Virus record (IMG/VR): IMGVR_UViG_3300032893_000041 | Coordinates: 1-64,000 of that record | Reading direction: 5' to 3' (one strand) | From: a virus | Length of the DNA stretch: 64,000 nt | Shown here: positions 17,221-39,520 of the stretch, in pieces | Numbering within the stretch: the stretch's first letter is position 1 | Layout: every line of letters starts with the position of its first letter | The notes under the pieces: model-generated | What the model was told of the DNA's origin: nothing | What the model saw: the letters and a program-made list of their open reading frames with translations, nothing else | Databases searched by the model: none | Translations under genes and position numbers: made by a program

Positions 17221-18636
17221 TCATTTGTTCCTCAGTTCCGTTATAAGGTCCAGCTTCTTTTGCAGCGCGTACGCGGTCTTCCTCTCGACCGAAGAGGCGA
17301 CGATGTCGATATAGGTAACGCAATCGGCGTCCTGGCCGTGCCGGTGATTGCGGTCTTCGGATTGCAAGCGGTTGCCTAGCGAGAAGCCGTTCTCAAAGAA
17401 GACCGTGGTCGAACAACGGTCGCGACCCTGGCCGCCTAACAACGTGTGGCCCATGCCGCCGACGGAGTCTTGAGCGATCATGACGCGGCGTTCAGTCTGC
17501 TGGTTGAAGCGATTCTTTTCGTCCTCAAGCGTCGCTTGGTCTAATCCTCCGCGCATGACGCTGGGGTGGAAGTCTCCAAGGACCTCCTTTAAAATATCGA
17601 CGGCCTGACGGTGCCGGCAGAATACAAGCATCTTACCGCCGCATTCTTCCATCACGGCGCGGACTTCTAGTGCCTTCGGGTTGCGCTTCGGCTCGACGAG
17701 GTCGTGCGTTCGGCCTTCCTCATCGATGATGAAGCCGGAACTGATCTGCTGCAACTTTTCGAGCTGCGTGATGACCATCGGCGCCGTGACCGCCTCGTCG
17801 CCCAGCATGACCATCAAGTCTTCCTGCATTTCCTTGTACAGGGCCGCCTGCTTCTTCTCCATCTTGACTTCGCGCGGCGGCGGGAACACCTTGGGCGGGA
17901 GGTCGGTCCATTCGGACTTGGTGGCCGAAAAGGAGCAGGACTCGAGCAGTTGTTGCAACTCCGCCTTATTCTCTTGCCGCAGGCCGATTACTTGCTTGCC
18001 CAGGTACCCGCCCATCACGGCGTAGCGGTTGCGAAACTGATAAGGATTGCCCAGCGGCTGCCGGATGAAGCGAAGCTGCGACCACCAGTCCATGACGTTG
18101 TTTACCATCGGCGTTCCGGACAGTGCGCGGGTCGTGTGCGCGAACGGTGCCAGCGATATCATCTTCTTGGTGGTGGACGCCTGGAAGTTTTTGATGCGGG
18201 AGGTTTCGTCGGCCACGAGCATGAAGCGCCCGTCCCATGTCTTAGCAAAGTCGCGCACCCAGTCGCCGCCGGAATAAAGCAGCGCCTCGTAATTCATAAT
18301 GTAGATGCGCGGCATGTCGCGTATCTTGCCGGGCGGCGGCCACGCCTCGGGCCACACCCACAGATCGACGTTTTGCACGCCCCACGCCTCGACTTCCGTG
18401 GCCCAGTTCCACTTGAGCGAGTTCGGGCAGATGACCAGCAGGTGTTGCACCGCGTCCTGGCGAACCAGCTCCACGTATTCGTTAAGCGCCACCGCCGTCT
18501 TGCCCGTTCCCATGTCCATCCAATATCCGAATCCTTTATGTCCGAATGATCTCTTTAATGCCTCCACTTGAACTGCATAAGGTTTTCCGCGCAAGTGCCA
18601 CATAACGCCGGTACCGTTCTTTCCAATGCTTTCCAC
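17221..18636 (-). CDS. SNF2-like superfamily 2 helicase/translocase
   Basis: 471 residues from a GTG with AGGGAG nine bases upstream. LRGKPYAVQVEAL (Q-motif-like), MDMGTGKTAVAL (motif I, residues 41-52), LVADETSRIKN (motif II, DETS), TRALSGTPMVN (motif III), LVFCRHRQAV (motif IV) and RLQSEDRNHRHGQ (motif VI) are visible. Phage SNF2-type ATPases translocate on dsDNA and act in replication restart, recombination or anti-restriction. The preceding HNH gene reads 101 bases into this gene in another frame, as if it had landed at its 5' end. Confidence 0.9.
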   Translation of the reverse strand: MESIGKNGTGVMWHLRGKPYAVQVEALKRSFGHKGFGYWMDMGTGKTAVALNEYVELVRQDAVQHLLVICPNSLKWNWATEVEAWGVQNVDLWVWPEAWPPPGKIRDMPRIYIMNYEALLYSGGDWVRDFAKTWDGRFMLVADETSRIKNFQASTTKKMISLAPFAHTTRALSGTPMVNNVMDWWSQLRFIRQPLGNPYQFRNRYAVMGGYLGKQVIGLRQENKAELQQLLESCSFSATKSEWTDLPPKVFPPPREVKMEKKQAALYKEMQEDLMVMLGDEAVTAPMVITQLEKLQQISSGFIIDEEGRTHDLVEPKRNPKALEVRAVMEECGGKMLVFCRHRQAVDILKEVLGDFHPSVMRGGLDQATLEDEKNRFNQQTERRVMIAQDSVGGMGHTLLGGQGRDRCSTTVFFENGFSLGNRLQSEDRNHRHGQDADCVTYIDIVASSVERKTAYALQKKLDLITELRNK

Positions 18637-18964
18637 CGTTAAGTTCTCCCTTGGCGAAGGATTTTATCATGTTGCAGTTAGCGCACAACAACTGGTATTC
18701 TTTTTGCCGTGGCAGCCGTCTTAATTTTGCGTATATGCGCCCGCCTGTTTCCTTACGTTCTTTTTCTCCTCCCCCGTTAACATGGTCTATGCACAGTGCG
18801 CGTGCGTCTGTAAACCCGCAATGACGACATTTGCCGCCGTACTTTTCAAATACTTCTAATTTAACGCGAAGTCGCCACTCGGCATCTTTCTCCCGGCCTC
18901 TATTTTTACGGTACGTCTTCATATACGCCCGCTGTTGTTCAAGAGTACCATGGTAGGGCATCAT
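18536..18964 (-). CDS. HNH endonuclease (homing type), copy 1
   Basis: 142 residues from the ATG at 18964, which overlaps the MazZ stop (ATGA). HNH signature: KYGGKCRHCGF, LCIDHVNGGG, YQLLCANCNMIKS, with paired cysteines that bind a structural zinc. Closely related in design to the gene at 22773-23099. More AT-rich than its neighbours. The C-terminal ~30 residues run through the helicase start region in another frame and look unlike the rest, so the original protein may have been shorter. Likely a free-standing mobile endonuclease gene. Confidence 0.88.
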   Translation of the reverse strand: MMPYHGTLEQQRAYMKTYRKNRGREKDAEWRLRVKLEVFEKYGGKCRHCGFTDARALCIDHVNGGGEKERKETGGRIYAKLRRLPRQKEYQLLCANCNMIKSFAKGELNGGKHWKERYRRYVALARKTLCSSSGGIKEIIRT

Positions 18965-19335
18965 TCGCTTGCCTTCAATCTTTTCCAAACAATCATGGCG
19001 AAGTTGGCTACGTCGGCGCATTCCTCCATGGCTTCTTCCGGCGTCTGATATTGGACCGCCACGGCCAGCTCCTCAACCTCGATGCGCAGCAATTGCAACA
19101 GGGCCGGAATGGGAAGCTTCGGCTTGATCAGCTTGTCCTTATTGGCAACAAGCTTTGCTTCCATGGCGTCTAGGAAGGTGTTAAGTTCGGGTCGGCGAGA
19201 TAGGCCACCGAGTTCCCGCGCGTTGCGTATCTCGCCTTTGAATGCGCCAGGAGGAGCGGGATTTGGACAGTTCACTCGACCGCAATAATATTGCATATCG
19301 TCTCCACACTGAAAACACCCCCGGTCGTGACTCAT
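18961..19335 (-). CDS. mazZ: MazG-like nucleotide pyrophosphohydrolase (MazZ type)
   Basis: 124 residues from the ATG at 19335, overlapping the PurZ stop (ATGA). The C-terminal half has the MazG metal motif: RIEVEEL (Glu86, Glu89) and EECADVANF (Glu105, Asp108), i.e. ExxE...ExxD. The N-terminus has a zinc-ribbon-like C7-x2-C10-x7-C18-x4-C23. In 2-aminoadenine phages MazZ converts dGTP to dGMP, the substrate of PurZ; direct coupling to PurZ here supports that role. The family can also hydrolyse other NTPs, so specificity is inferred from context. The zinc ribbon is not something I associate with standard MazG. Confidence 0.8.
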   Translation of the reverse strand: MSHDRGCFQCGDDMQYYCGRVNCPNPAPPGAFKGEIRNARELGGLSRRPELNTFLDAMEAKLVANKDKLIKPKLPIPALLQLLRIEVEELAVAVQYQTPEEAMEECADVANFAMIVWKRLKASE

Positions 19336-20456
19336 TTTGCCCACTCCGGTACGGCGCGGTTGGCGAAATAGCGGATGACTGTGTCTTCGTCCTCCGTCAC
19401 GTCCTCCTGGTGCGGGCCGAACGAATAGACGTGCTGGCAGTGCCGGCCTAGGACTTCCTTTTCTATGTTCTCCATCTGGGCCAACCGGTGCCAGAACTCG
19501 TTTGGTCCGCGAAGGTAGTCGACGAAGGTCAACGCTACGATGTCTGGTCGGTTGAGCGATAACGCGGCGGCGTACTGATCATTGGACCACGTGGCTATAC
19601 GCCGGATGCGCTTTGAAACGGTGGTGCGCTCGGGTTCGATGCCGGGAAAGGCATCTTCCCATCGAAGTTCCTGGCTATCCGGATAGAAAGGACCAGAGTC
19701 CCCGATCTGCTCTCCCATTTCATTGAACGAGTGCCCGACGCGAATGGGAAAGGTACGGACGACCATGGCCACGTTACCGAGAAAGGAGGGGTGTATTCCG
19801 GCATCGTTGAAGCCAGAACCGACCCAACAGTCGCGAGAAGTCGTGTACGGGTAGATATGACCATGGATCAACCCCAGTCCGGTTCCCTGTGGAATTTCGA
19901 CGGTAACGGCAGCGCGATTTTCAAGATATTCGTTTAGATTGAGGTCATCGATGTAGGGCGCAATCTTTGGCTCGCCAGCAGCGACGCGCGCCCGGCGCAG
20001 CACCTTGCCGGCCAATGTCTGGCCGACGCCCTTTTGGATGGCGCCATACTTGATGCCGGGCGACTGCTCGATGTCCTTCGCTGCCGCCTTGGCTTCCTCG
20101 GTGATGATCGAGGCGCGCGGATGGATGACGAGGCGTTGTATGATGCCGCCGTGCGTTCTTTCGCATTCAGCAATCTCTCGCTTTAACGTGGCCACGTCGA
20201 TGATGGACCCGCCGTTGATGTACACCTTGGACTCACGGCGGATGACGCCCACGGTCGGCAGATGGTAACAGATGAACTTGGTGCCGTTCTTGTACTGGGT
20301 CGTGTGACCCGCCTGCGCCCCGGCGTTCGTTGTGGCGATATCGACGCCCTCGGAGCAGGCGTTATGCGCCAGCCACGCCGCAATCTGCCCCTTGCCTTCG
20401 GACCCAAATTGTCCACCGACCAGGACCGCCGCACTGCCTTTTTCTGCCCACTTCAT
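19332..20456 (-). CDS. purZ: 2-aminoadenine pathway synthetase (PurZ; adenylosuccinate synthetase homologue)
   Basis: 374 residues, shorter than bacterial PurA (~430). The GTP-binding loop reads VGGQFGSEGKGQ: the catalytic Asp of PurA (GDEGKGK) is Ser19, the change I recall for viral PurZ. Other landmarks are kept: NAGAQAGHT with the catalytic His, QKGVGQTLAGK, PQGTGLGLIHG, TTSRDCWVGSG, ERTTVSKRIRRIATW and VALTFVDYL. PurZ joins Asp to dGMP to give the precursor of dZMP, which host enzymes finish; dZTP then replaces dATP in phage DNA. Start and stop overlap both neighbours by ATGA, linking it to the VRR-NUC nuclease, polymerase and MazZ. A duplicated ordinary PurA is the alternative; the Ser19 change and context argue against it. 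Confidence 0.88.
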   Translation of the reverse strand: MKWAEKGSAAVLVGGQFGSEGKGQIAAWLAHNACSEGVDIATTNAGAQAGHTTQYKNGTKFICYHLPTVGVIRRESKVYINGGSIIDVATLKREIAECERTHGGIIQRLVIHPRASIITEEAKAAAKDIEQSPGIKYGAIQKGVGQTLAGKVLRRARVAAGEPKIAPYIDDLNLNEYLENRAAVTVEIPQGTGLGLIHGHIYPYTTSRDCWVGSGFNDAGIHPSFLGNVAMVVRTFPIRVGHSFNEMGEQIGDSGPFYPDSQELRWEDAFPGIEPERTTVSKRIRRIATWSNDQYAAALSLNRPDIVALTFVDYLRGPNEFWHRLAQMENIEKEVLGRHCQHVYSFGPHQEDVTEDEDTVIRYFANRAVPEWAK

Positions 20457-20878
20457 GTTCGCACTGTGATCCTTTTCAAGATGTCGTTGATGGGGAAAGT
20501 ACCGCCGCGTGGACGGTTAAACCACGGTTGATATTCGCATTCGATAATGCCCGTATTATAGCCCGTGCCAGCCAAGACAGACAAGTGCGCCGGATGAGCG
20601 ATGTCCGGCACTTTCGTGAACAGCAGCCATCCGGCGGATTGTCCTGCGTCATGGAAGCGCTTTATCGTCTCGATTTGCAGTGCCGACAGATTCAATGGTA
20701 GCTGGTTCGTCTTTCGCCACTTTTCGTATTTACATTCGATGAAGACGCCATGCCAGCCGGGCATCTTGACGAACAGATCGAGGAAGCCGGCCTGAAAGCG
20801 GGACCGCGTCTTGAGCGCCAGCCCACCCGCCGCGCGCACATCCTTGCAGAAGTGGTCCTCGGCCAGATGCTCGTTCAT
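20453..20878 (-). CDS. VRR-NUC / PD-(D/E)xK-type nuclease
   Basis: 141 residues. The core AGFLDLFVKMPGWHGVFIECKY gives the PD-(D/E)xK triad Asp34...Glu48-x-Lys50, typical of phage VRR-NUC nucleases. These cut branched DNA such as Holliday junctions or flaps. It lies between the polymerase (ATGA overlap at its start) and PurZ (ATGA at its end), so it is probably the replication or packaging resolvase. Confidence 0.82.
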   Translation of the reverse strand: MNEHLAEDHFCKDVRAAGGLALKTRSRFQAGFLDLFVKMPGWHGVFIECKYEKWRKTNQLPLNLSALQIETIKRFHDAGQSAGWLLFTKVPDIAHPAHLSVLAGTGYNTGIIECEYQPWFNRPRGGTFPINDILKRITVRT

Positions 20879-22788
20879 ACCTTCATCTCCTCCTGCATCT
20901 CGCCGTAAGTCGCCACGGCCCAGTTGCGGCCTTCCTTGGCGTCCACATGCAACGGGATGTCGATCTTTATGACGGCGGTCGGCGAGTCTTTATCCACGTC
21001 CGTCATGATGCGCAGTGCTTCCCGATATTGCCACTCATAAACCGGCATAAACTGATAAGCGAGGTCATCGTGGATCGAGTTGAGAAGGTTGGTATCGTCG
21101 CCTTCGGACTCAAAGAACTCGTCTATCTCGCACATCTTTAATTTGATGATGTCGGCATTGCCGCACTGTAGCAGCCGATTTAATGCCTTGTATTCCTCGC
21201 CCATCTCCTTTAGCCGCGCCCGTCGGCCGAGAAGGGAGATCACGTAGCCGCGCGACCGCATGCGGGCACCGGATTCTTTTTGTATGCGTTTGATTTCGGG
21301 CATCGAGTTGTGGTAGTCGTTGATGATGGCATACGGGTCCACGTCCGTCGCTCCCGCCGCGCGCAGCATGGCGGCAATCTTTCCGACGCCCGCTCCGGTT
21401 AGGATGGCCTGATTGATGACCTTGCCGTACTGGCGCCACGGTTCCTCTTTCGTGCCGAAGACGGACATCGACACGGCAGAGTGCGCATCGATATGCGGCA
21501 CGGCCCGGTATCCGTCCATCAGCACCTTGACGCGCCCGTAATAGGCGAGCAGAACCGGTTCAATCTGACTGTAATCGGCGGAGGCGAACACTTTTCCTTC
21601 GTCCGGGATGAAGATCGAGCGCAGCAGTTTGCCCAGCTCCTTGTTGCGCTTATGAAACTGTTGCAAGTTTGGCTCGTTGCTAGACAGGCGGCCGGTAATG
21701 ACGCCGAACTCATCATTGCGAAGCTGATTGTAATTAGTGTGAACGCGACCCTTCCAGATATGCCGTTCCTTGAGCGGGATCAGAAATGAGTCTTTTAAAT
21801 GCTCATATTTGCGCGCTGCGAGGATAGAGCGGCCGAGAGGATTAGTTTGTAGCCACGCCTCGGTGAAGGAAATCTTACCGCCCGGCGTCCGTGCGAAATC
21901 CTTGTCTTGCATTCCCAGCGCCCGGAATGCGGGTTCCAACTGCGTCGGCGCCTTGGGATTGGTCAGGGTCGGCGGCAGGATTTCCTTGGCACGCTTCAAC
22001 TTGCCATCTACAATATCGATCACTTCATCGAGCCGACCCTCATCGAGCCGCATGCCGCGATGTTCCATACGGAAAAGAACGCGCGTCAACCGGCGTTCGA
22101 CCTCCCATACTTGAACCATCTGCTGCGCCTCAATGTCCAGGCGCTGGCGGTCCTTCAATCGCCACGTGGCGCTCCCGTCACCCGTGGCGTAATCGACGCC
22201 TATCGCATCATCGCCGGCAAGGCGCCAGAAGTTGCCCATCGTTTCCTTGGCGACCGGTTGGCCGCCAAACTTTCCCGCCAGATGTTTGTATAGCGGGCCG
22301 CCCTTCTTGCCCTCGATGTTGAAATATTCGCAGCAGGCGTCGAGAGTAAACTGCTTCATAAACTCGTTGATCATGGCCTGCGTGACCATGGTGTCTTCGG
22401 TCAAACCAGTAATTAAAACTTTAGACACGGGGTTAGCCGCAAAGTGTAAATCAAATTTCTCGTTATGACCTATCCAACGCAACTCGCGACGAGCCAGCGC
22501 TATCTTGGCTAACGCTTTTTCAAATGGGTGTTGTTTGTCTTTCGATCCGTAATGCTCCGTCGTTGGTGCTTTCCAATCCAGAAGGTTCTTCCCGCCGCCG
22601 TGGCGAACTGGAATGTAATAGGTGTCGGAAGGATTGGCTGAAAACGTAAAAACCCAACCGCATACAAAATTCCTGCGCCAGTCCAACCCGCTGGTTTCAA
22701 CATCCAATACCACTTCATGGGTGGTGGAATCCGCAATACGGCGTAGAACTATTTCGGCTTGTTGATCAATTTTCAATCTTTCCTCCAT
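20875..22788 (-). CDS. Family A DNA polymerase with 3'-5' exonuclease (DpoZ candidate)
   Basis: 637 residues from ATG 22788 (a TTG at 22776 after GGAGG is an alternative). The exonuclease is intact: LDVET (Asp29, Glu31), GHNEKFD (Asn109, Asp113), YATGDGSATW (Tyr200, Asp204). Polymerase motif A ADYSQIE (Asp405), motif B WRQYGKVINQAILTGAG (Lys456), motif C SIHDDLAYQ (574-575). Unusual: O-helix Gln460 and Thr464 where Pol I has Phe and Tyr, and Asp-Asp instead of Asp-Glu in motif C. No 5' nuclease domain, as usual for phages. Coupled to PurZ and MazZ, so likely the polymerase that uses dZTP. The HNH gene upstream overlaps its first 16 bases. Confidence 0.9.
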   Translation of the reverse strand: MEERLKIDQQAEIVLRRIADSTTHEVVLDVETSGLDWRRNFVCGWVFTFSANPSDTYYIPVRHGGGKNLLDWKAPTTEHYGSKDKQHPFEKALAKIALARRELRWIGHNEKFDLHFAANPVSKVLITGLTEDTMVTQAMINEFMKQFTLDACCEYFNIEGKKGGPLYKHLAGKFGGQPVAKETMGNFWRLAGDDAIGVDYATGDGSATWRLKDRQRLDIEAQQMVQVWEVERRLTRVLFRMEHRGMRLDEGRLDEVIDIVDGKLKRAKEILPPTLTNPKAPTQLEPAFRALGMQDKDFARTPGGKISFTEAWLQTNPLGRSILAARKYEHLKDSFLIPLKERHIWKGRVHTNYNQLRNDEFGVITGRLSSNEPNLQQFHKRNKELGKLLRSIFIPDEGKVFASADYSQIEPVLLAYYGRVKVLMDGYRAVPHIDAHSAVSMSVFGTKEEPWRQYGKVINQAILTGAGVGKIAAMLRAAGATDVDPYAIINDYHNSMPEIKRIQKESGARMRSRGYVISLLGRRARLKEMGEEYKALNRLLQCGNADIIKLKMCEIDEFFESEGDDTNLLNSIHDDLAYQFMPVYEWQYREALRIMTDVDKDSPTAVIKIDIPLHVDAKEGRNWAVATYGEMQEEMKV

Positions 22789-23099
22789 CCACGCGCAAAC
22801 TCTTTGTTTTCCCTGGCTTTAATTATATTACAATTAGCACAAAGCAATTGATAATCTTTGGACCGTGGTAATTTAGACAAACGAACGATAGTTGAAAACA
22901 CACCAACGCGGCGGTTGGTTCCGGTTTTCTTTTTATGACCGTCCCCGTTAACGTGATCGATGCACAACACGCGCGAGTCACTAATTTTGCACCGTTTACA
23001 TTTTCCACCGTATTTTTGTAATACGATATTACGTAAACGATCATAATACGCTCTATACATCGCACGAGTTTTTACAGGGTCGCGTATGCGTTTAGCCAT
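22773..23099 (-). CDS. HNH endonuclease (homing type), copy 2
   Basis: 108 residues from the ATG at 23099, overlapping the previous stop by eight bases. HNH signature: KYGGKCKRCKI, LCIDHVNGDG, DYQLLCANCNIIKA. The region is visibly AT-rich compared with flanking genes, a sign of separate origin. It ends 16 bases inside the polymerase gene. Paralogue of the gene at 18536-18964; the two bracket the polymerase-PurZ-MazZ segment. Such enzymes nick or cut alleles lacking the insertion. Confidence 0.88.
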   Translation of the reverse strand: MAKRIRDPVKTRAMYRAYYDRLRNIVLQKYGGKCKRCKISDSRVLCIDHVNGDGHKKKTGTNRRVGVFSTIVRLSKLPRSKDYQLLCANCNIIKARENKEFARGWRKD

Positions 23100-23370
23100 G
23101 GCTCGTACTCCGCGACCACATATAAAGGACATAGTCATATTGCCAGTCGTTCGATTGCTCGAGCCTTTCCAGCAGGTGCTTGGCCAGGATGGGTGGCATC
23201 TCCATCAATTCCAAATCGGTGATGTAATCGAGGTCGTCCAAACATGCGCTTAGCCAGCGGTTATTACGCCGGATGCGAAAGTAGGCGCGGCCCTCGTACA
23301 AAGTCAGCCGCGCCTTGTCGCAACCGTTGTTTGGGTTATGGCTGGCGCAGGAAGTGGCGTCCTTATTCAT
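23092..23370 (-). CDS. Small early protein of unknown function
   Basis: 92 residues; start overlaps the stop of the upstream gene (ATGA at 23367-23370). N-terminus has two Cys; then YEGRAYFRIRRNNRWLSACLDDLDYI, a beta-type segment, and a helical C-terminus (AKHLLERLEQSNDW). No domain recognised. Confidence 0.65.
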   Translation of the reverse strand: MNKDATSCASHNPNNGCDKARLTLYEGRAYFRIRRNNRWLSACLDDLDYITDLELMEMPPILAKHLLERLEQSNDWQYDYVLYMWSRSTSHG

Positions 23371-24006: not shown

Positions 24007-24903
24007 TCAGTACTTCGGGCGGTCGGCGGGCGCTCCCGTGGTCCCTTCCGCGCCAGAAACGTCGGCCGCTGCGTTCTCCAGGTCCTCGTCCCTGATCTTT
24101 GGAGCGTCCTTGAGGAACTTCTCGTAGAACTCCCGGTAGAGCGCGGCCTCGTCGGCGTCCTCCACGAACCCGTTGGCGACGTAGCGGACGTTAAAGAACG
24201 GTCCGGACGGCCCCTGGTCCTCGATGGATTGCAGCTTGAAGCGCTGACCCCAGGCGGCCACGCGGCTCATCTTGAGTTTGCCCAGCACGGCCTTCGCGGC
24301 CTTGATCTGAGAGCGCTGATTGGTGACGATGGACGGCGACAGATGCGGGAAATCCGTCAACATGCAGCACATGTTGTACATGCGCGTGCCGGCCGGCTGT
24401 GACTGCGGGTCGTCTGGGTCGGACGTGCCGAATTCGAGCAGGCGCGACTCAACGACGTTGGACTTAGTCGCCCACTTCACGGTCTTCTTGTTCTTCAACT
24501 GAACATCGAAGACGGCATTAGACGGCTGCCACTTGACGAGATCATCGGTCCGGGCCAGGATGCCGCCGCCGCTCTCGCGCGGGCGCCACAGCATGGCGCG
24601 GATGTCCGAGTAGACGATCACGAGGTCGATCTCAGGTCCGAGAATCTCCTCCGTGATCGTGTGGAAGAAGTCACCAGGCTTGAGGCCGTCGATGGCGTTG
24701 AGTTCCTCGGAGATGGCCTGAGCTAGCTTGATCAGGGGGAGGGCTACGTCCGACCCCCTGATGCTTTCGGTTCCCTGGCCGCCGGTTCCCCGCAAATGCT
24801 CCGGGATGACGGCGAGGTCGCCGCCCTGCCCGGTGCGGGTTACTGCGGTGGACGGCTTCTTGGGTTCGGGTCTGGATGGTGCGCGTGCGGCGGGTTTCGC
24901 CAT
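24007..24903 (-). CDS. Conserved phage protein, possible ssDNA-binding/recombination factor
   Basis: 298 residues, ATG with TATAGGAG upstream. Basic Pro/Ala-rich N-terminus (~40 residues), a central globular region (ALPLIKLAQAISEELNAIDG, KPGDFFHTITEEILG, WATKSNVVESRLLEFG, AGTRMYNMCCMLTDF) and an acidic Ala/Asp-rich tail. A globular core with an acidic C-terminal tail is typical of phage ssDNA-binding proteins, and a terminator after it suggests abundant separate expression. The assignment is inference; no OB-fold motif is provable by eye. Confidence 0.55.
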   Translation of the reverse strand: MAKPAARAPSRPEPKKPSTAVTRTGQGGDLAVIPEHLRGTGGQGTESIRGSDVALPLIKLAQAISEELNAIDGLKPGDFFHTITEEILGPEIDLVIVYSDIRAMLWRPRESGGGILARTDDLVKWQPSNAVFDVQLKNKKTVKWATKSNVVESRLLEFGTSDPDDPQSQPAGTRMYNMCCMLTDFPHLSPSIVTNQRSQIKAAKAVLGKLKMSRVAAWGQRFKLQSIEDQGPSGPFFNVRYVANGFVEDADEAALYREFYEKFLKDAPKIRDEDLENAAADVSGAEGTTGAPADRPKY

Positions 24904-24988
24904 GGTGGTCTTTCTCCTATAATGAGTGTAGCAGGACGGTCAGGTTACTATGGGCGACCCGGTGCCGTCCAGTCCGGATCGTGAAGTC

Positions 24989-25162
24989 TCATCCGTGTAG
25001 GGGAAACGTCTTGACCTCTCTAAATCCGCATGTTTCGCAATAGCGCTCCTGAACGGTAACACGGTCTTCCCTGTCCTGAATAGTGTGGACGCGCGATACC
25101 GTCTTCGATTCCCACTTGGACCATCGATGACCCCAAAAACACGTCCACCATCGTATCATCAT
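24989..25162 (-). CDS. Small zinc-ribbon-like protein
   Basis: 57 residues from the ATG at 25162, overlapping the upstream stop (ATGA). WWTCFWGHRWSKWE plus YCETCGFRE gives a C-x3-H...C-x2-C arrangement typical of tiny phage zinc proteins. Function unknown. Confidence 0.6.
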   Translation of the reverse strand: MMIRWWTCFWGHRWSKWESKTVSRVHTIQDREDRVTVQERYCETCGFREVKTFPLHG

Positions 25163-25686
25163 TTCACCTTCGTGACGGAGGTCGTCTTCATGATCGCCGA
25201 CTTGAAGAGGTCGGGGTCGAGTTCCTTTCCCTCTTCGGCCATCGCCTTGGCGGCGCTCGCCAGCGTGCCGGCGTTCACCGTCTCGATGATCAGTTCGGAC
25301 AGGCCGTTGTCGCGCAGCCATTGCTTGGCCTTGTCCTTGTCTTCTCCGACCGATACTCGCAGGAGTTCGGATACTGTCACCCGGAACTTGGCACCGTCTT
25401 CGCCGATGGTGACGGTGGACACCTTGTTATCTTCGAAGAGTTGCGGGATGATCTCGCCTTTTAGGCGGCCGAGAAGAGTTTGGGCGCCGTCCATCGAGTT
25501 CTGGAAGCTGTCGAGCGCGTCGCGCAGGCCGATATAGAAGGCGGCCACGGCGGCGGGTTCCTTTTTCAATTTATCGAAGGCGCGCATCGTTGCCGTTGAG
25601 AACTTCAACGCGTCGGCGGCGAGGAGAACCGAAGGCTTTGGCTTCTTCGGCGTGGCCTTCTTCTTGGCGACCTTAGCTGTGGTCAT
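25159..25686 (-). CDS. Conserved phage early protein, Lys-rich N-terminus
   Basis: 175 residues from the ATG at 25686 (overlaps the preceding gene by 14 bases). N-terminus AKVAKKKATPKKPKPS is strongly basic; the body is helical (AAVAAFYIGLRDALDSFQNS) followed by TVTIGEDGAKFRVTVSELL and NAGTLASAAKAMAEEGKEL. Similar proteins occur near recombination genes of other phages, as I recall, without assigned function. The basic tail suggests nucleic-acid contact. Confidence 0.6.
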   Translation of the reverse strand: MTTAKVAKKKATPKKPKPSVLLAADALKFSTATMRAFDKLKKEPAAVAAFYIGLRDALDSFQNSMDGAQTLLGRLKGEIIPQLFEDNKVSTVTIGEDGAKFRVTVSELLRVSVGEDKDKAKQWLRDNGLSELIIETVNAGTLASAAKAMAEEGKELDPDLFKSAIMKTTSVTKVK

Positions 25687-25858
25687 GTTCGTCCACCTTG
25701 GCGTCGCCTTGCACCTTGTCGACAGCCGTGGACAGTTCATCCAGGGTATCTGCGTCGATGGCGTCGAATAGGTCGTTGATTTGTGATTTGGTCAAGATGA
25801 CCGTTTGCTGGATATCGTCATTCTCGACGACGCCGATGGTTATGTAGAACTTCGTCAT
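25673..25858 (-). CDS. Small acidic early protein
   Basis: 61 residues. ATG preceded by TATAGGAGCAAGAGCC. FYITIGVVENDDIQQTVILT is a beta hairpin-like start, then an acidic helix (DLFDAIDADTLDELSTAVDKV). Overlaps the next gene by 14 bases. Unknown function. Confidence 0.6.
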   Translation of the reverse strand: MTKFYITIGVVENDDIQQTVILTKSQINDLFDAIDADTLDELSTAVDKVQGDAKVDEHDHS

Positions 25859-25869
25859 GGCTCTTGCTC

Positions 25870-26202
25870 CTATATGAGTTGAATGGTTGCGGGGTAGTAA
25901 GCCTGTTCCTTGCCGTCGTACTTCAATGCTACCACGCGGTGGTAGCCTAGTCTACCTAGCATCATGAAGCAAACGGCAACGCCCAGCATGTCGCCGACGA
26001 TGGCGACATAGTCGATGTCCGGCCGGTACTCATAGCGTAGGAAGATGTTGCGGGCGCGCTCCGCCATGAAGCGCATGCGTTCATCGACTTCGTCGGGATA
26101 AGTAGAGCGCGTGAAAATCGTGATGCGCTTGCCGAACTCGTCCAGCTTATCGAGGTTGAAGCGCTCCTCGTCCTGGGTTACGAACACTCGCGGTCTGGTC
26201 AA
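25870..26202 (-). CDS. Small early protein, TTG start
   Basis: 110 residues from the TTG at 26202, ten bases after TATATAGGAG; the longer frame upstream runs through a terminator stem and is unlikely. RPRVFVTQDEERFNLDKLDEFGKRI then a hydrophobic helix with Met/Val (GDMLGVAVCFMMLGRLG). No family recognised. Confidence 0.6.
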   Translation of the reverse strand: MTRPRVFVTQDEERFNLDKLDEFGKRITIFTRSTYPDEVDERMRFMAERARNIFLRYEYRPDIDYVAIVGDMLGVAVCFMMLGRLGYHRVVALKYDGKEQAYYPATIQLI

Positions 26203-26220
26203 ATCGGTCGTACTCCTATA

Positions 26221-26277
26221 TAAAATCGCGGCGGGGGACATTGGCCGATCCAACGAAATCGGAGGCTCCCCCGCCGC
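26221..26277 (-). terminator. Strong hairpin terminator / leader structure
   Basis: Arms at 26228-26238 and 26267-26277 pair perfectly over 11 bp (GCGGCGGGGGA with TCCCCCGCCGC). An inner ATCGG/CCGAT stem lies in the loop, and GATTTTATAT follows on the minus strand. It ends the unit containing the lipoprotein gene; the next gene's ribosome site (TATAGGAG) begins right after it. Confidence 0.7.
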
Positions 26278-26977: not shown

Positions 26978-27589
26978 TCAGCGGTCGGCGTCCGCGTATG
27001 CTTCGACCGTCTGGTTGTACCAGTATCGGACCTCTGTAGTCACTTGCCGCTGGGTATTGTACAGCGGCCCGTCGTTGTGAATTTCGATCCAGTTCATTCC
27101 CCAGCGCTTCGGATCGAGCCGCTTGCGGCTGTCCCACTTCTCCTGTTCCTTGGGTCCCCGGTGCAGCAGGACGAGCAGCATATGGAACTTGTGACCCACC
27201 GCTTCCACGACCGAGTCAACTTCTTCATCGAAGCCGGCGTCCGGGACGACGACCGACCGCTTTAACGTGGCGTACTGGTCGAGATCGTGTGCCATCATGT
27301 GTCCAAACACTCGCCTTCCCATGCGCGGCTTGGCCCAGCCTTCCGAGATGCCAATCATGAGATCGCGGACCTCGGCGTAATGGAGCGCCGGATGCGATTT
27401 TCCCTTATGATTCTCCACGATATCGTCGATGGTGGAGCGCGGCAGATTGAAGAAGCCGGCCAGGGCGCGACGGATTGGTTCAGCGAATCGGTGCTTTACG
27501 TATCCGTCGGCCACCAGAACGTTCGCCACGGCGGTATCCTTGCCGGCGCGCGGTGGGGCATTGACGAAGACTAGGGCGGGCTTCTGCAT
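26978..27589 (-). CDS. Deoxynucleoside monophosphate kinase-like protein
   Basis: 203 residues. P-loop NAPPRAGKDTAVANV (residues 10-24) with the GKDT form seen in phage dNMP kinases (T4 gp1/T5 types). HRFAEPIRRALAGFF and the LMIGISEGWAKPRMGRRVFG segment fit the substrate-lid region; VVVPDAGFDEEVD matches the conserved D-x-G/R region. It phosphorylates dNMPs to dNDPs. In a Z-genome phage it could also act on dZMP, which is an inference. Its start overlaps the upstream gene by 19 bases. Confidence 0.8.
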   Translation of the reverse strand: MQKPALVFVNAPPRAGKDTAVANVLVADGYVKHRFAEPIRRALAGFFNLPRSTIDDIVENHKGKSHPALHYAEVRDLMIGISEGWAKPRMGRRVFGHMMAHDLDQYATLKRSVVVPDAGFDEEVDSVVEAVGHKFHMLLVLLHRGPKEQEKWDSRKRLDPKRWGMNWIEIHNDGPLYNTQRQVTTEVRYWYNQTVEAYADADR

Positions 27590-32393: not shown

Positions 32394-34115
32394 CTAGTCG
32401 CAGGAGCGCGTTCCGTCCGCCGCGATCTTGCAGGCCGCGCCTTCAACGGGAAGGTTGGAGCGCACGTCGCGCACCACGGCGCCGCGCTTTCCGGTCGGGT
32501 TGTACGTGGTCAGACCCTTAGCCCCGCCTTCCCAGGCCGCCATGTAGATGCCCTTGAACGCGTCCCAGTTGCATCGATCATCGATGTTACACGTCTTGGC
32601 GACGGCGGAGTCCACGTGGCGCTGAGCCGTAAACAGCACGTTTAAGTGGTCCTCAGTACTGCATTCGACGGAGGTCTTGCCCGTCGTACCGAACACTCGC
32701 AGACCGTAGTCCTGCAAGGTCACTTCTCGTTCGCCGTCTGGCATGCGCGACACGCGCTTCTGTTCCAAGAAGATGACCGGCTCGATGCCGCCGGACACGT
32801 TGTCGGCCGAAAGAGAAATAGTGCCGGTGGGGGCGATGGAGGTCAGGTGAGAGTTGCGGATGCCGTGGCTTTCGATTCCGTCCTGGATAGCCTTGGGCAA
32901 CGTCTGGATGAAGCCGCCGGACAGATAGTCGTCCCGCTTGAGCGCGGGGAAGCTGCCCTTCTCCTTGGCCAGCTCGATGGAGGCCGCATAGGTCTTGATC
33001 TTGAGCGTGCCGAGTACGCGGTTGGCCTCCATCAGGAAGCCGGGCGACCCGTACGGATGGCCCAGCGCCTCGATGGCGTTGGCCAGTCCGGTGACGCCGA
33101 TGCCCATGCGCCGCTTTGACTTGGCGGATTCCTCCTGCTCCTTCATCGGGTAGACGGCACGATCCACGACGTTGTCCATCGCGCGCACGATGTGATAGAG
33201 GTCGTCCTCCATGGAGTTGAGGTCCAGGTATAATTCCTTGTCGTAGGCGGTCTTGCGCACGTACTTGACGAGGTTGACGCTGCCCAGCAGGCAGGCGGCG
33301 TGCGCCGGCAACGGCTGCTCGCCGCATGGGTTGGTGGCCTCGATGCGCTCGCAATACCATAGATTGTTCATGCGATTGATCGTGTCGAGGAAGATTACGC
33401 CGGGTTCAGCCCAGTCCCAGGTCGAGCGCATGATCATGTCCCACAGCGCGGTGGCCTTGATGGTGCGTATGCGCCGGCCGGCGAAGCGGAGGTCGAAATT
33501 GGCATCGGCCTGCACGGCGGACATAAACTCGTCGGTCACGCCGACGGAGATGTTAAAATTTCGAAAGCGATGCTCGTTCTGCTTACACTGCACGAACTCT
33601 TCGATGTCCGGGTGATCGACGCGCAGCACGGCCATCTGCGCGCCCTTTCTTTCCCCCACCGATCGCAGTACGCCGCCCATGGCGTTGAATAGTTCCATCC
33701 ATTCGACCGGCCCGGTGGCTTGACTGCCCAGCGTCGATATCGCAGCGCCCCGGTAGCGGATGCGGGAAAAGTCGTAGCCGACGCCGCCGCCCAATCGCAT
33801 GGTGTCGCCGGCCTGCCCCAGCACCTTCATGATCGAGGTCATCGAGTCGCGGATGATACCAGAAACGAAACAGTTGTATGGAGTGACGATGCGCGGGCTG
33901 CCCATGGCGTTCTGCACGCGTCCGCCCGGTAAAAATCGTTGATCGAGTAGGATGTCGCGGTAGGCCCGGAAGTGGTCTTCGCCGTCCTTGAGAGCGTCGG
34001 CCTGCCTAGTGGCGCACTGCTCGAAAGACTCGTTGATGGCTCGATATTTAGCAGCGTGTAATTCCTGTGAGAAGGGAAGCGTCGGCCCGTATGTCATCTT
34101 TTTATTCCCCGTCAT
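32394..34115 (-). CDS. nrdJ: Class II (B12-dependent) ribonucleotide reductase
   Basis: 573 residues from the ATG at 34115 (a second ATG six codons on is possible). RFLPGGRVQNAMGSP, TPYNCFVSG (Cys82), GGGVGYDFSRIR, TNPCGEQPL (catalytic Cys264, Glu266) and the C-terminal Cys562/Cys572 pair identify a single-chain NrdJ-type enzyme. It makes deoxyribonucleotides with adenosylcobalamin and needs no small subunit; none is encoded. It supplies dNTPs for replication, including dGTP that MazZ/PurZ can divert to dZTP. It depends on host or imported B12, which says something about the host. Confidence 0.9.
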   Translation of the reverse strand: MTGNKKMTYGPTLPFSQELHAAKYRAINESFEQCATRQADALKDGEDHFRAYRDILLDQRFLPGGRVQNAMGSPRIVTPYNCFVSGIIRDSMTSIMKVLGQAGDTMRLGGGVGYDFSRIRYRGAAISTLGSQATGPVEWMELFNAMGGVLRSVGERKGAQMAVLRVDHPDIEEFVQCKQNEHRFRNFNISVGVTDEFMSAVQADANFDLRFAGRRIRTIKATALWDMIMRSTWDWAEPGVIFLDTINRMNNLWYCERIEATNPCGEQPLPAHAACLLGSVNLVKYVRKTAYDKELYLDLNSMEDDLYHIVRAMDNVVDRAVYPMKEQEESAKSKRRMGIGVTGLANAIEALGHPYGSPGFLMEANRVLGTLKIKTYAASIELAKEKGSFPALKRDDYLSGGFIQTLPKAIQDGIESHGIRNSHLTSIAPTGTISLSADNVSGGIEPVIFLEQKRVSRMPDGEREVTLQDYGLRVFGTTGKTSVECSTEDHLNVLFTAQRHVDSAVAKTCNIDDRCNWDAFKGIYMAAWEGGAKGLTTYNPTGKRGAVVRDVRSNLPVEGAACKIAADGTRSCD

Positions 34116-34137
34116 GATCAGCCCCACTTGAGAACGA

Positions 34138-34172
34138 GGCGGGCGCGCACCCCTCGAAGAATGCGCGCCCGC
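34138..34172 (-). other. GC-rich hairpin in the reductase leader
   Basis: GCGGGCGCGCA and TGCGCGCCCGC form an 11-bp perfect stem with a 12-base loop, about 25 bases before the reductase ATG. No T-run follows on the minus strand, so it is more likely a leader structure or attenuator than a simple terminator. The whole 34116-34287 gap has no credible gene; I looked for cobalamin-riboswitch boxes and saw none. Confidence 0.5.
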
Positions 34173-34287
34173 TGGCAATTTCCATTATCTGCGATGTGCG
34201 TGTGACCCAGCTAGACCATGGTCCTCTCCTCTGTCAGTTGGCCGCGACAAGGCACTCACCCTCAGGCCGTGTGTACCCGGTATGGTA

Positions 34288-34467
34288 CTACCGGCGGCGG
34301 GTGGTGTCTAGTGGCTTTAGTGAAGAGGAGTTCACGGTCGCCTCTCGAATCAGGCCGCGCCGGGCGACTTCGCGCCACAGCTCGCCTGAAATCTTGAGCG
34401 CGGCGTCGAGCGCCTCCAGGACGGTGGTATCATCGAGGTCCTTGATTTCGACGCCGCGCCACTTCAT
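34288..34467 (-). CDS. Small early protein of unknown function
   Basis: 59 residues from the ATG at 34467, overlapping the dCTP deaminase stop (ATGA). KDLDDTTVLEALDAALKISG and REVARRGLIREATV are helical; basic C-terminus. Unknown. Confidence 0.6.
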   Translation of the reverse strand: MKWRGVEIKDLDDTTVLEALDAALKISGELWREVARRGLIREATVNSSSLKPLDTTRRR

Positions 34468-35072
34468 CCGGTCTGACCGGGATCGAAAGGTTCGGACTCG
34501 CAAATGCCCGAATGTTCTTGCGGCGGGTCCAACTTATCAAGTTCGGCGGCGATGACCGGCGGCGTATGAGCGCCGTCGATGTCGCGCGTGTCTACTGGGC
34601 CGCTTCCCATCTTGGAAAACACGGCCGGCGACGCGCCCTTGGACGCAAACTGATAGCGCCCGGCGTAGGGCTGCACGGTAGGTTCGTCCAGGATGTGGAA
34701 GACCACCTGGGCAATGGGCGCTCCAGCCGGGATAAAGACGCGGCGCGACGAGTGGTTGGAAATCTCGAGCGTCAGCGCCTTGCCGACCCAGCCGGGTTCA
34801 ATGACGGTGTTTTGCACGCAGATGCCCATGCGCGCCCAGGTGGACTTATCGTGGACGACGCCTAGCAAATCCCACGGCATGTTGAAGCTTTCAATCGTCG
34901 AGGCCAGCTTAAAGTGCCCCGGCGACATCTCCAGTTCCTCGGCGACACGCACGTCGTAACCGGCCGGTGAAAGACCAAAAGTCAAGCCATGGGCATGGGT
35001 CCGTTCATGGAACGGCTCGATCATGTAGTTGTTGGCGCAGTATCGGCGAATTGTTTGCGCGGATGCGATCAT
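34464..35072 (-). CDS. dcd: dCTP deaminase / dUTPase-family protein
   Basis: 202 residues from the ATG at 35072 (GGGAGA upstream). The Dcd signature HDKSTWAR (residues 74-81, Ser77 and Arg81), NTVIEPGWVG and LTLEIS with Glu103 as the expected catalytic residue are present; GLSPAGYDVRVAEE fits the trimer core. Converts dCTP to dUTP (or to dUMP if bifunctional), feeding thymidylate synthesis. No thymidylate synthase is seen, so host ThyA/ThyX would complete the route. Confidence 0.85.
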   Translation of the reverse strand: MIASAQTIRRYCANNYMIEPFHERTHAHGLTFGLSPAGYDVRVAEELEMSPGHFKLASTIESFNMPWDLLGVVHDKSTWARMGICVQNTVIEPGWVGKALTLEISNHSSRRVFIPAGAPIAQVVFHILDEPTVQPYAGRYQFASKGASPAVFSKMGSGPVDTRDIDGAHTPPVIAAELDKLDPPQEHSGICESEPFDPGQTG

Positions 35073-36930: not shown

Positions 36931-37346
36931 GGCTTATTTCTCCCCCACGGTCCCGACTGCGCGTGCGGCTGTAAGCGTGCCACTTCCGCCTCCAGCGCCG
37001 CGCAGCGCAGTCTGGCCGCTTGGAGATCGGCGAGCAGTTGGGGGCCGGCATCTTGCAAATAGCGGCCCATGTTGCCGACCGTCTCGCCTCGTCGCAGCCA
37101 AAATGCCAGTTCCTCCCGCCGCCCCATCTCCCCGCCCACGTCCGCACGCTGCAGGGCTGCGAGGGTGCGGAGGATGGTGGCGACTTGTTCAGCCTCTTCC
37201 AAGCTCATGGAAAAATACGAGCCATTAGGAGGATCATGTGGTGCGAAGGGATCATCCAATTCTGAGCGGAATTTGACCGCCAGCCGTTCGATCTCCTCCG
37301 GCGGGGGCAGCGCGGCCAGCGGCTTGGCGGCGTCAACTTTTGTCAT
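36927..37346 (-). CDS. Coiled-coil early protein
   Basis: 139 residues from the ATG at 37346, which overlaps the primase stop (TGATG). PPPEEIERLAVKFRSEL, MSLEEAEQVATILRTLAAL, and a C-terminal heptad-like helix LADLQAARLRCAALEAEVAR. No known domain. Co-translated with the primase. Confidence 0.55.
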   Translation of the reverse strand: MTKVDAAKPLAALPPPEEIERLAVKFRSELDDPFAPHDPPNGSYFSMSLEEAEQVATILRTLAALQRADVGGEMGRREELAFWLRRGETVGNMGRYLQDAGPQLLADLQAARLRCAALEAEVARLQPHAQSGPWGRNKP

Positions 37347-39520
37347 CAATAACCTCCGTGTGCGTTGAGAAAGGTGATGGCGCGTACCTTGATCGGCCGT
37401 CCGCCGACGCGCTTATTGAAGGATGGAAAGCCCAGCCGGGTCATTCGCGTACCGAAGGTAACGTTGGACATCGGCTTATGGCCGGACGCCTTGGCCCACT
37501 CCATGTAGCGCATGTAGACCGACATCGACTCTTCGGCCGGCTCGACTCCATTCGGTATCTCGTAGTCCGGGTGCTTCATGGCGAGGCCCTGGTGCGTCTG
37601 ATCGATCAGGAATTGAAGCGCCTGATTGTTCTCTTCGGTCAACTGATTGATCTTGATCTTGTGGATGCGAGGTTTCTCAAAGCCGCCGCGCGCTCGAAGT
37701 CGCAGGTACCCGGCCGCCATACGGTTGAAGATGCCCGGCAGCTCGGACTTAAGCTTGTTCGACAGAGAAAGGTCTTGTTCATTTTCTCGTAGCGACTCTC
37801 CACAGTGCAGATATAGAAGCCGTCGCTCAATCGCTCCACTATCGTCCGAGTATCTAAAGTTCTCGTTGCCGACGATGATGACGCGAGCCGTAATGGTGGC
37901 ATAAGTCTGTTCCTTGTAAAGTTCGCGGACCGGGACGCGGTCGCCGCCGGTTATGGCCTTGAACATCCGGTCCGCCATGGCCGACATTCCGGACACTTCC
38001 GGCGAGATGTTGACGAGCCGCCCGACCATGGCAGTGCGGGCGCGCTCCTCATTGAAGGTGTCGATGGTGGAAGCCGACACGGCGTCCGGCGCATGCAGCA
38101 TATGGATAAGGTTGATGAGCGTGGACTTACCGGTGCGCGTCTCCCCCACCACGGCCAGCGCCGTCTGGAAGGAGATGTCCGGCACGAGCGTCAGGCCAAT
38201 AAACTCCTCGAAGTTCTGCACCGACAGTTCCTGGTCTCGTAATCGCTCCTCGTCCGACCTAGGATCGTCGTCGGAAGCCGGTGCTTGCTTGAAGACGCGT
38301 TTAATGAAGCGGTCGTAAGTCGGGCACTTGGCGCCCCGGTCGAAAGAAAAGGGGAGACGATAGAGGATGTAGTCCTCAGGCGACCCTTGTTCGGTGAAGT
38401 CGCCAGACATGAGGTCGAACGTGCCATTTTGAAGGCGCACCTTTGGAACGTGAATGTCGGGCCAGACCTCGACCATCGACCGAAAAGTAGACAGGGCCTC
38501 CCGCATGTCCTTATATCCTATACGAAACTCGTTGATGAGACGCGTCTCCAAAGGCTCGAGCCGCTGGGGTACCCAACATCCGTCGTGATACCTGAGCATG
38601 GCTCCCGGCTGCCTTCGTAAAAACGGAAGGCCACCCAACGCGCCGGCCAGCCACTCGGCCCGCAACAGCGACGCCGGTACCTTCTTGGAAGCCACGTCGG
38701 TCTGGAATCCCTTGTTGCGAGCGGACTCGACGAGGTTGATGATGCGCTTCTCATAAATGCGGTCGTCCCAGTTGTTGTGGCCATGGACGGCCAGACACTC
38801 ATCCACCGCGCGGCGGCAGCGGGCAAGAATGAAGTCATCAGGACAGCCGGCCTCCACCATGGCGGCGGTCGCGCGCATGAGGGAGTCATCGACGGTCCCG
38901 CCGCCGCCCGGCCCGTGCCATGACATGTCGTTGATGAGGAACCACGGCGAGTCCGGCTTGTTGACGGCGGTCTTAATCTCTGCTACAACCCATTCGTCAA
39001 TGAGTGGAAGTTGGGTGATTGGCGTGTTCTCGAGCGTGATCTCGGAGCGCCACTCGTAGGGGCGCTTGGTGTCTGGGTGAATCGACGGCGGGATGACCGT
39101 CTGATTACCGGCGCCCATGAAGTCTATGACCGTGAAGCGCTTACCGGTGACCGAGTCCTTGCGATGAAACTTGGCGGACTTCATGGAATGGGCGGACCGC
39201 ACCAGGAAGGTGATACCCTTGCTGCCGAATTTGGCTATCGGATCGCCGGGGATGGCCGAACGGACGCGCTGAATGAACAGCTCGTCCTTGATGTCGATGT
39301 CGATCCCGACCAGGAAGGACTCTTTGTCGACCTCGGTGCCGAGAAGGACACCCAGGTTCCATTCCCTCCCCTGCGTAAAGTACCGATGAATCTCGTCCGG
39401 CTTTATTCTGAACTCTAAGAAGTTGGAGTCATTCGGGTACTTGGCCTTGCCAGCGATAGGGATGACGTGGTATCCTAGCGCCGCGATCTTTTTGGCTGAT
39501 TGAATGACGGAGGACGCCAT
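37346..39520 (-). CDS. PrimPol primase-helicase (D5/SF3 type)
   Basis: 724 residues. The N-terminal ~180 residues are a Prim-Pol (AEP) domain: YHVIPIAGKAKYP, VGIDIDIKD with metal-binding Asp74/Asp76, and GNQTVIPPSIHPD. The C-terminal half is a D5_N/SF3 helicase: VVGETRTGKSTLINL (Walker A, 459-466), FNEERARTAMVGRLVNISPE (Walker B region) and ARVIIVGNENFR (sensor/motif C). It primes and unwinds at the replication fork. PrimPols also accompany other 2-aminoadenine phages such as S-2L. First gene leftward of the control region 39521-39930. Confidence 0.88.
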   Translation of the reverse strand: MASSVIQSAKKIAALGYHVIPIAGKAKYPNDSNFLEFRIKPDEIHRYFTQGREWNLGVLLGTEVDKESFLVGIDIDIKDELFIQRVRSAIPGDPIAKFGSKGITFLVRSAHSMKSAKFHRKDSVTGKRFTVIDFMGAGNQTVIPPSIHPDTKRPYEWRSEITLENTPITQLPLIDEWVVAEIKTAVNKPDSPWFLINDMSWHGPGGGGTVDDSLMRATAAMVEAGCPDDFILARCRRAVDECLAVHGHNNWDDRIYEKRIINLVESARNKGFQTDVASKKVPASLLRAEWLAGALGGLPFLRRQPGAMLRYHDGCWVPQRLEPLETRLINEFRIGYKDMREALSTFRSMVEVWPDIHVPKVRLQNGTFDLMSGDFTEQGSPEDYILYRLPFSFDRGAKCPTYDRFIKRVFKQAPASDDDPRSDEERLRDQELSVQNFEEFIGLTLVPDISFQTALAVVGETRTGKSTLINLIHMLHAPDAVSASTIDTFNEERARTAMVGRLVNISPEVSGMSAMADRMFKAITGGDRVPVRELYKEQTYATITARVIIVGNENFRYSDDSGAIERRLLYLHCGESLRENEQDLSLSNKLKSELPGIFNRMAAGYLRLRARGGFEKPRIHKIKINQLTEENNQALQFLIDQTHQGLAMKHPDYEIPNGVEPAEESMSVYMRYMEWAKASGHKPMSNVTFGTRMTRLGFPSFNKRVGGRPIKVRAITFLNAHGGY

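Follow-up and report, generated by a model that had tools for sequence, protein, structure and literature searches.

The stretch analyzed here (the window) comprises 64,000 nucleotides, positions 1 to 64,000 of virus record IMGVR_UViG_3300032893_000041, and covers nearly all of this 64,240-bp IMG/VR record, which carries no end repeats and may be incomplete. A sequence-only reading of the window had proposed a 2-aminoadenine (Z) genome module made of four genes joined by ATGA overlaps. On the minus strand these genes follow one another head to tail in the order family-A DNA polymerase, PD-(D/E)XK nuclease, PurZ and MazZ (Table 1). All four open reading frames (ORFs) and every junction were recovered where that reading had placed them, with exact ATGA overlaps read from the sequence at the polymerase/nuclease (GTATGAAC), nuclease/PurZ (ACATGAAG) and PurZ/MazZ (AAATGAGT) boundaries. 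Its coordinates and motifs needed one amendment: MazZ begins at the ATG at 19335, giving 124 residues, and not at the GTG at 19344, because the ATGA overlap with PurZ requires ATG. The coupled chain extends to a fifth gene through an overlap between MazZ and HNH endonuclease 1, which starts at 18964.

Among the NCBIfam models, the PurZ model gave the best match to the predicted PurZ (206 bits, followed by 161 bits for the best PurA model), and the protein matched PHROG 1211 with E=2.9e-59 and showed distant homology to PurA in Pfam. The serine that the earlier reading had noticed in place of the catalytic aspartate of a PurA homolog (GSEGKG) is present as Ser19 (codon 20402-20400), at the position where the E. 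coli and Pyrococcus PurA enzymes have Asp. A serine occupies this position in 149 of 149 aligned PurZ-type sequences, a count that is not independent because most of these sequences were found with patterns including that serine. Thr278, which replaces a Gly, corresponds to the PurZ-specific Thr273 in the numbering of cyanophage S-2L, and the insertion after V240 (PIRVGHSFNEMGEQIGDSGPFYP) corresponds to the PurZ-specific loop insertion after Val241 in the same numbering. The Asp-to-Ser and Gly-to-Thr changes are among the PurZ-specific sites described previously (PMC8342488), and a third such site (Q308, PMC8342488) is Asp in the window, as it is in many relatives and in PurA.

A scan of IMG/VR with the single PurZ sequence returned no matches. 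An alignment-based profile scan of the same database identified more than 570 PurZ relatives, 80 of which were kept, the nearest being that of contig L016 with 50% identity. The closest isolate PurZ, that of Ochrobactrum phage vB_OspP_OH (NC_070933; OH in the following), is 39% identical. In the tree of PurZ and PurA that the earlier reading had suggested as a check, the protein grouped with phage PurZ (100/100) and not with cellular PurA. This phage clade in the careful tree leaves out PurA, PurZ0 and the cellular Ser-type homologs; within it the window and L016 proteins are sisters (100/100), and the lineage holding the window (97/93) has as its sister group the PurZ proteins from phiVC8, S-2L and SH-Ab 15497 (100/97). 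A wider tree agrees, placing the window among 36 other contigs and zero isolates (97). Within INPHARED, IMG/VR and the literature, which define what we call an uncultured lineage, OH was the only isolate found in the PurZ lineage of the window. PurZ-like genes with Ser for the catalytic Asp also occur in mostly bacterial or archaeal contigs (L174-L210) from Verrucomicrobia, Planctomycetes, Chloroflexi, Bacteroidota, Acidobacteria and Thermoplasmata; most of them group in a separate clade that lies outside phage PurZ.

The predicted MazZ had no match in Pfam, PHROGs or NCBIfam, nor by tblastn in phages, and was detected only by direct comparison with OH gp33 (42% identity over 67 residues), a protein classed as MazZ-2 (PMC8342488), and by an iterated MazZ-2 profile (E=6.2e-23). 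The MazG ExxE...ExxD motif reported earlier for the gene after PurZ was found, and its acidic ligands E86/E89/E105/D108 (alignment numbering) are invariant in 32 MazZ-2 sequences. The N-terminal tail is rich in cysteine, with four cysteines (CFQC...CGRVNC) not seen in the aligned relatives, and is possibly a zinc ribbon. A structural model resembling all-alpha nucleoside triphosphate (NTP) pyrophosphatases matched 2p06 with Z 11.6 and HisE/MazG proteins with Z 6-7.6, the latter near the values of unrelated helical chains, and Foldseek returned no match at E <= 0.001; the modeled fold is weakly consistent with this enzyme class. For the nuclease, an AlphaFold model with a predicted local distance difference test score of 86 gave RecU (Z 11.2) and Hjc (Z 10) as its best structural matches, and residues G31/D34/E48/K50 are invariant in 22 sequences.

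The polymerase retains intact exonuclease motifs I (LDVETSGL), II (HNEKFDL) and III (DYATGDGSA) and polymerase motifs A (SADYSQIEP) and C (IHDD). DpoZ_1 was its best NCBIfam model (256.6 bits), followed by Pol I (227.9 bits). On DpoZ_1 the polymerases of OH, L016 and Vibrio phage phiVC8 scored 253, 322 and 909, and an Arthrobacter phage polymerase scored 1186 on DpoZ_2. In both a quick and a careful tree the window polymerase falls in a clade (100/100) whose members are all PurZ-linked, and the careful tree places this clade next to the phiVC8-like DpoZ (90/86) and apart from the Arthrobacter type. The careful tree was used for the main claims because the quick tree joined long branches (L010 with L201, and L067 and L069 with L083); the comparisons were made without the phiJL001 polymerase. 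On this basis the clade is probably sister to the phiVC8-like DpoZ. We refer to it as lineage 3, a label of convenience. In the alignment, neither the helix-O insertion of phiVC8 type (RQYGKVINQAILTG in the window versus RNASYSGQPNAKQMNLGMIF) nor the long fingers insertion of that type was found in the window polymerase.

Helix O carries Thr464 (codon 21399-21397) at the position of E. coli Tyr766 and DpoZ Phe459, and the spacing R452-K456-T464 equals that of E. coli R754-K758-Y766. According to PMC8599892, the two described DpoZ groups share a single change, Phe at this site where Tyr is otherwise strictly conserved, and no one residue accounts for the Z selectivity of DpoZ. Among all gathered polymerases, the residue is Thr (67), Phe (12), Tyr (10), Ser (2), Asn (2) or Met (1) in those linked to PurZ, and Tyr (98) or Thr (4) where the locus showed no PurZ; the four Thr loci in this second group (L113, L118, L139 and L150) break off soon after the polymerase gene. 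Because some loci had been fetched through PurZ, a subset obtained with polymerase motifs other than helix O was recounted, and there 24 of 24 Thr loci had PurZ and 9 of 9 Tyr loci were without it. As the polymerase sequences are related, these counts do not represent independent events. The quick tree has Tyr or Asn in the basal members of the lineage and Thr or Ser in a derived subclade, which suggests that the helix-O Tyr was lost separately from the Phe groups.

For linkage, lineage-3 polymerase loci having 3.5 kb or more of downstream sequence (61 distinct loci) were compared with 80 control PolA loci. PurZ lies downstream of the polymerase in all 61 (median gap of 1.0 kb between open frames), the nuclease between them in 60, MazZ-2 in 57 and DatZ in 40, and the available flanks of the controls contained neither PurZ (0/80) nor MazZ-2 (0/80). 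Every one of the 109 loci matched by a refined MazZ-2 profile contains PurZ. This linkage is the strongest evidence that the genes of the module act together. With the PurZ model outscoring PurA, the PHROG 1211 match and a gene order that recurs in dozens of distinct contigs, the module is not a chance assembly.

In relatives, DatZ lies between MazZ and an SNF2-type helicase, whose homologs occur in 114 loci at the position after MazZ/DatZ; in the window this slot is occupied by HNH endonuclease 1. This gene and HNH endonuclease 2 are paralogs (50% identity over 84 residues, BLASTP 1e-27) that bracket the module, and they look like recent insertions because their GC contents of 0.48 and 0.42 compare with 0.58 for the window. 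A search with the Pfam YfbR-like model PF12917, which matched in phiVC8, S-2L, OH and three relatives as positive controls, found nothing in the whole 64,240-bp record or in L016. DatZ is lacking from the slot in 34 loci, most of which still have MazZ-2 beside PurZ. In 17 of these 34 loci the interval from MazZ-2 to the helicase encodes a conserved protein of about 60-80 residues (for example, the 77-residue open frame at L078:1617-1847), a possible DatZ replacement. It was rejected as a common replacement, being shared by 17 of the 34 loci, with an HNH gene in its place in the window. In L089, L090, L132 and L136 a different endonuclease-like gene, HNH-type by motif, occupies the slot, and homing-type genes may therefore have entered it more than once.

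We consider it likely that the four genes form the core of a Z genome system. In line with the described pathway (PMC8342488, PMC12884076), MazZ-2 would release (d)GMP from (d)GTP, and PurZ would couple dGMP to aspartate to give N6-succino-2-amino-dAMP. Host PurB and kinases, perhaps with a phage deoxynucleoside monophosphate (dNMP) kinase, would complete the triphosphate dZTP, which the neighboring family-A polymerase would place opposite T when copying the genome. ATGA coupling would produce the enzymes together, and the RecU/Hjc-like nuclease would be a co-inherited replication or recombination partner. Without DatZ, exclusion of A would depend on the polymerase, on a broader MazZ activity or on consumption of dATP by PurZ, whose S-2L counterpart has been shown to use dATP as its source of energy. 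From the gene order, homology, clade and key residues observed, alongside the observed absence of DatZ, we infer the activities of the module and the presence of Z in the DNA. The earlier proposal thus stands as regards the PurZ clade and the kinds of polymerase and MazG-like protein that accompany PurZ, and needs revision in that the polymerase is not a standard DpoZ and DatZ is lacking. The window would then hold a system of known kind, without DatZ and with an unusual residue in its polymerase, from a deep lineage that is almost entirely uncultured. A more tentative extension, which we hold somewhat less probable than its contrary, is that lineage 3 is a third lineage of Z-selective family-A polymerases, with helix-O Thr or Ser replacing Tyr or Phe and enough selectivity without DatZ, the whole block being passed on together in many uncultured phages.

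Several results weigh against a working Z system in this phage. The PurZ score of 206 bits lies below the curated NF038379 cut-off of 300, which is a naming threshold of NCBI and not a biochemical criterion; the OH protein, annotated as PurZ in RefSeq, also falls below it with 241. The polymerase score of 256.6 bits is below the DpoZ_1 (NF038380) cut-off of 500, as are those of OH and L016. Nor is the helix-O Thr required for a Z-phage, because 10 PurZ-linked polymerases retain Tyr; the change is associated with Z-phages without being required. In the paper on isolate OH, a search by terms turned up no test for Z in DNA. The distant PurA homology could also suggest an auxiliary PurA gene that raises AMP synthesis for host or phage, but the Ser for Asp13, Thr278, the tree position and the constant association with MazZ-2 and a polymerase of the PurZ-associated kind make this highly improbable. 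The pocket of PurZ raises a more specific concern. Residue 140 (codon 20037-20039), which aligns with S-2L Thr132, part of the pocket for the dGMP base (PMC8342488), is Ile in the window, whereas all 109 viral relatives, all 38 cellular homologs and both PurAs have Thr. Gln48 stands where 104 of 109 viral relatives have Asn (Asn49 in S-2L numbering), and Ala139 and Ser281 are likewise unusual. Of the conserved dGMP pocket, Thr132 and Asn49 (S-2L) are absent from the window PurZ, with the remaining pocket residues largely kept. Ile140 may reflect a mistake in the assembly, a substitution that the enzyme tolerates or loss of function, and it leaves some doubt on this allele. A decaying or altered PurZ, inactive or acting on another substrate in a module that is relictual here, would accord with a Thr140 invariant in all other homologs compared and with HNH genes that bracket the module, one of them in the datZ slot. 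However, the gene keeps its reading frame, its ATGA coupling and most other active-site residues, 5 of 109 viral relatives also have Gln48 and a single-base assembly error could explain Ile140, and we regard decay as improbable.

The lack of DatZ is the remaining difficulty. Profiles built from known and related DatZ found nothing in the window. A Z-cluster has been defined by datZ, mazZ and purZ together (PMC8342488), and no DatZ adjoins mazZ and purZ here, in a record that may be incomplete. dZTP might accordingly be made and yet yield DNA with a mixture of A and Z. Such partial substitution would fit the absence of DatZ from the window and its sister contig L016, in a search that does find the DatZ of reference phages, and two published observations: in S-2L the specificity of an unselective polymerase comes from DatZ (PMC8065100, as summarized in PMC8342488), and in E. 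coli the content of Z fell when datZ was omitted (PMC8342488). Nevertheless, the polymerase groups of the other cultured Z-phages select Z on their own (PMC8599892), and the 34 loci without DatZ in the slot indicate that its loss is tolerated; we consider partial substitution unlikely, though less so than decay of PurZ. Under the preferred reading of a Z genome system, polymerase selectivity would be separable from dATP removal in this lineage because DatZ is often absent, and the helix-O Tyr site, changed to Thr, Ser or Asn in a further abundant PurZ-linked lineage, is a sharp, testable candidate. The known diversity of Z-phages would be enlarged well beyond isolates. For the resistance to restriction enzymes and Cas nucleases that the sequence-only reading had expected, known Z-phages show partial protection from restriction (PMC12884076), and no test of Cas nucleases on Z-DNA phages was found in the literature.

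The most similar isolate, OH, is a 41-kb podovirus that shares with the window the order polymerase, (small gene), nuclease, PurZ, MazZ-2 and SNF2-type helicase, belongs to the same lineage in both trees and shows identities of 39% (PurZ), 33-35% (polymerase) and 42% (MazZ-2). In OH, by contrast, DatZ lies between MazZ and the helicase, PurZ is preceded by an additional gene, the helix-O site has Ser where the window has Thr, and the block has no annotated HNH genes. phiVC8 (PurZ, DpoZ, MazZ-2 and DatZ) shares the PurZ clade, the Ser for Asp, the MazZ-2 type and a PolA-type replicase. However, its DpoZ has three insertions and Phe459, whereas the window polymerase has Thr and is without at least the two fingers insertions, and phiVC8 has a primase between polymerase and PurZ as well as DatZ. 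S-2L (PurZ, MazZ-1, DatZ and PrimPol) likewise pairs PurZ with a MazG-like partner and has mostly common pocket residues, but it has no PolA, its MazZ is of the MazZ-1 type and its DatZ is essential for selectivity (PMC8065100). Arthrobacter phages of the Wayne/Huntingdon type (PurZ0, DpoZ and DutZ/DmtZ) combine Z biosynthesis with an adjacent family-A polymerase, but their PurZ0 and polymerase branch elsewhere, pool control is by DutZ/DmtZ and no MazZ-2 match was found.

Large viral contigs (111-287 kb; L060, L069, L065, L073, L056 and L067) can also carry Ser-type PurZ genes; the PurZ isolates fetched are about 39-48 kb. A family-A polymerase was not found in 5 of 12 records checked (L056, L060, L061, L065 and L072), where Z would need a different type of polymerase unless the record is incomplete. 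In L015, L023, L031, L041, L043 and L044 a DUF5664-like gene directly precedes PurZ, and several of these have MazZ-2 about 4-5 kb upstream of PurZ, an alternative arrangement of pool enzymes.

Table 1. Features of the window discussed in the text, with the evidence for each assignment.
Feature	Coordinates	Strand	Evidence and remarks
SNF2-type helicase	17221..18603 (longest ORF to 18636)	-	Pfam SNF2-rel_dom 2.8e-20; ends conserved block in relatives
HNH endonuclease 1	18536..18964	-	phrog_2255 6.3e-9; datZ slot; ATGA-coupled to mazZ; guanine-cytosine (GC) content 0.476
MazZ-2, MazG-like (d)GTP diphosphohydrolase homolog, 124 residues	18961..19335	-	OH gp33 similarity, iterated profile, ExxE/ExxD
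PurZ, 2-aminoadenylosuccinate (N6-succino-2-amino-dAMP) synthetase homolog, 374 residues	19332..20456	-	Ser19 for catalytic Asp, Thr278; family models, tree
PD-(D/E)XK nuclease, RecU/Hjc Holliday-junction-resolvase fold, 141 residues	20453..20878	-	phrog_93 endonuclease 7.3e-7
Family-A DNA polymerase with 3'-5' exonuclease, lineage-3 DpoZ-like, 637 residues	20875..22788	-	Pfam DNA_pol_A 1.7e-49
HNH endonuclease 2	22773..23138	-	phrog_2255 6.1e-9; 16-base overlap with polymerase gene start; GC content 0.421
Deoxynucleoside monophosphate kinase homolog	26978..27589	-	phrog_139 3.1e-27
Class II (B12-dependent) ribonucleotide reductase NrdJ	32394..34178	-	TIGR02504 462.7 bits, cut-off 399.95
dCTP deaminase, start at ATG of MIASA	34464..35072	-	TIGR02274 96.7 bits, cut-off 92.8
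PrimPol/D5-type primase-helicase	37346..39520	-	Pfam Prim-Pol 1.2e-12, DUF5906 8.2e-12

Beyond the module, the predicted class II ribonucleotide reductase, dCTP deaminase and dNMP kinase fit a large demand for deoxynucleotides, and the kinase homolog could phosphorylate dZMP or dGMP. The dCTP deaminase gene, a member of the dUTPase superfamily, was considered as a DutZ replacing DatZ and rejected, as it passes the dCTP deaminase cut-off and is without a DmtZ fusion. DUF5664 gave no match in the window; DmtZ and DutZ were not searched with profiles of their own. Finally, upstream of the polymerase, positions 24007-26253 of the window encode homologs of cyanophage Pam3 gp32, gp33 and gp34 (PF23992, PF23984 and PF23977), and gp34-type homologs recur in 107 of the fetched loci.

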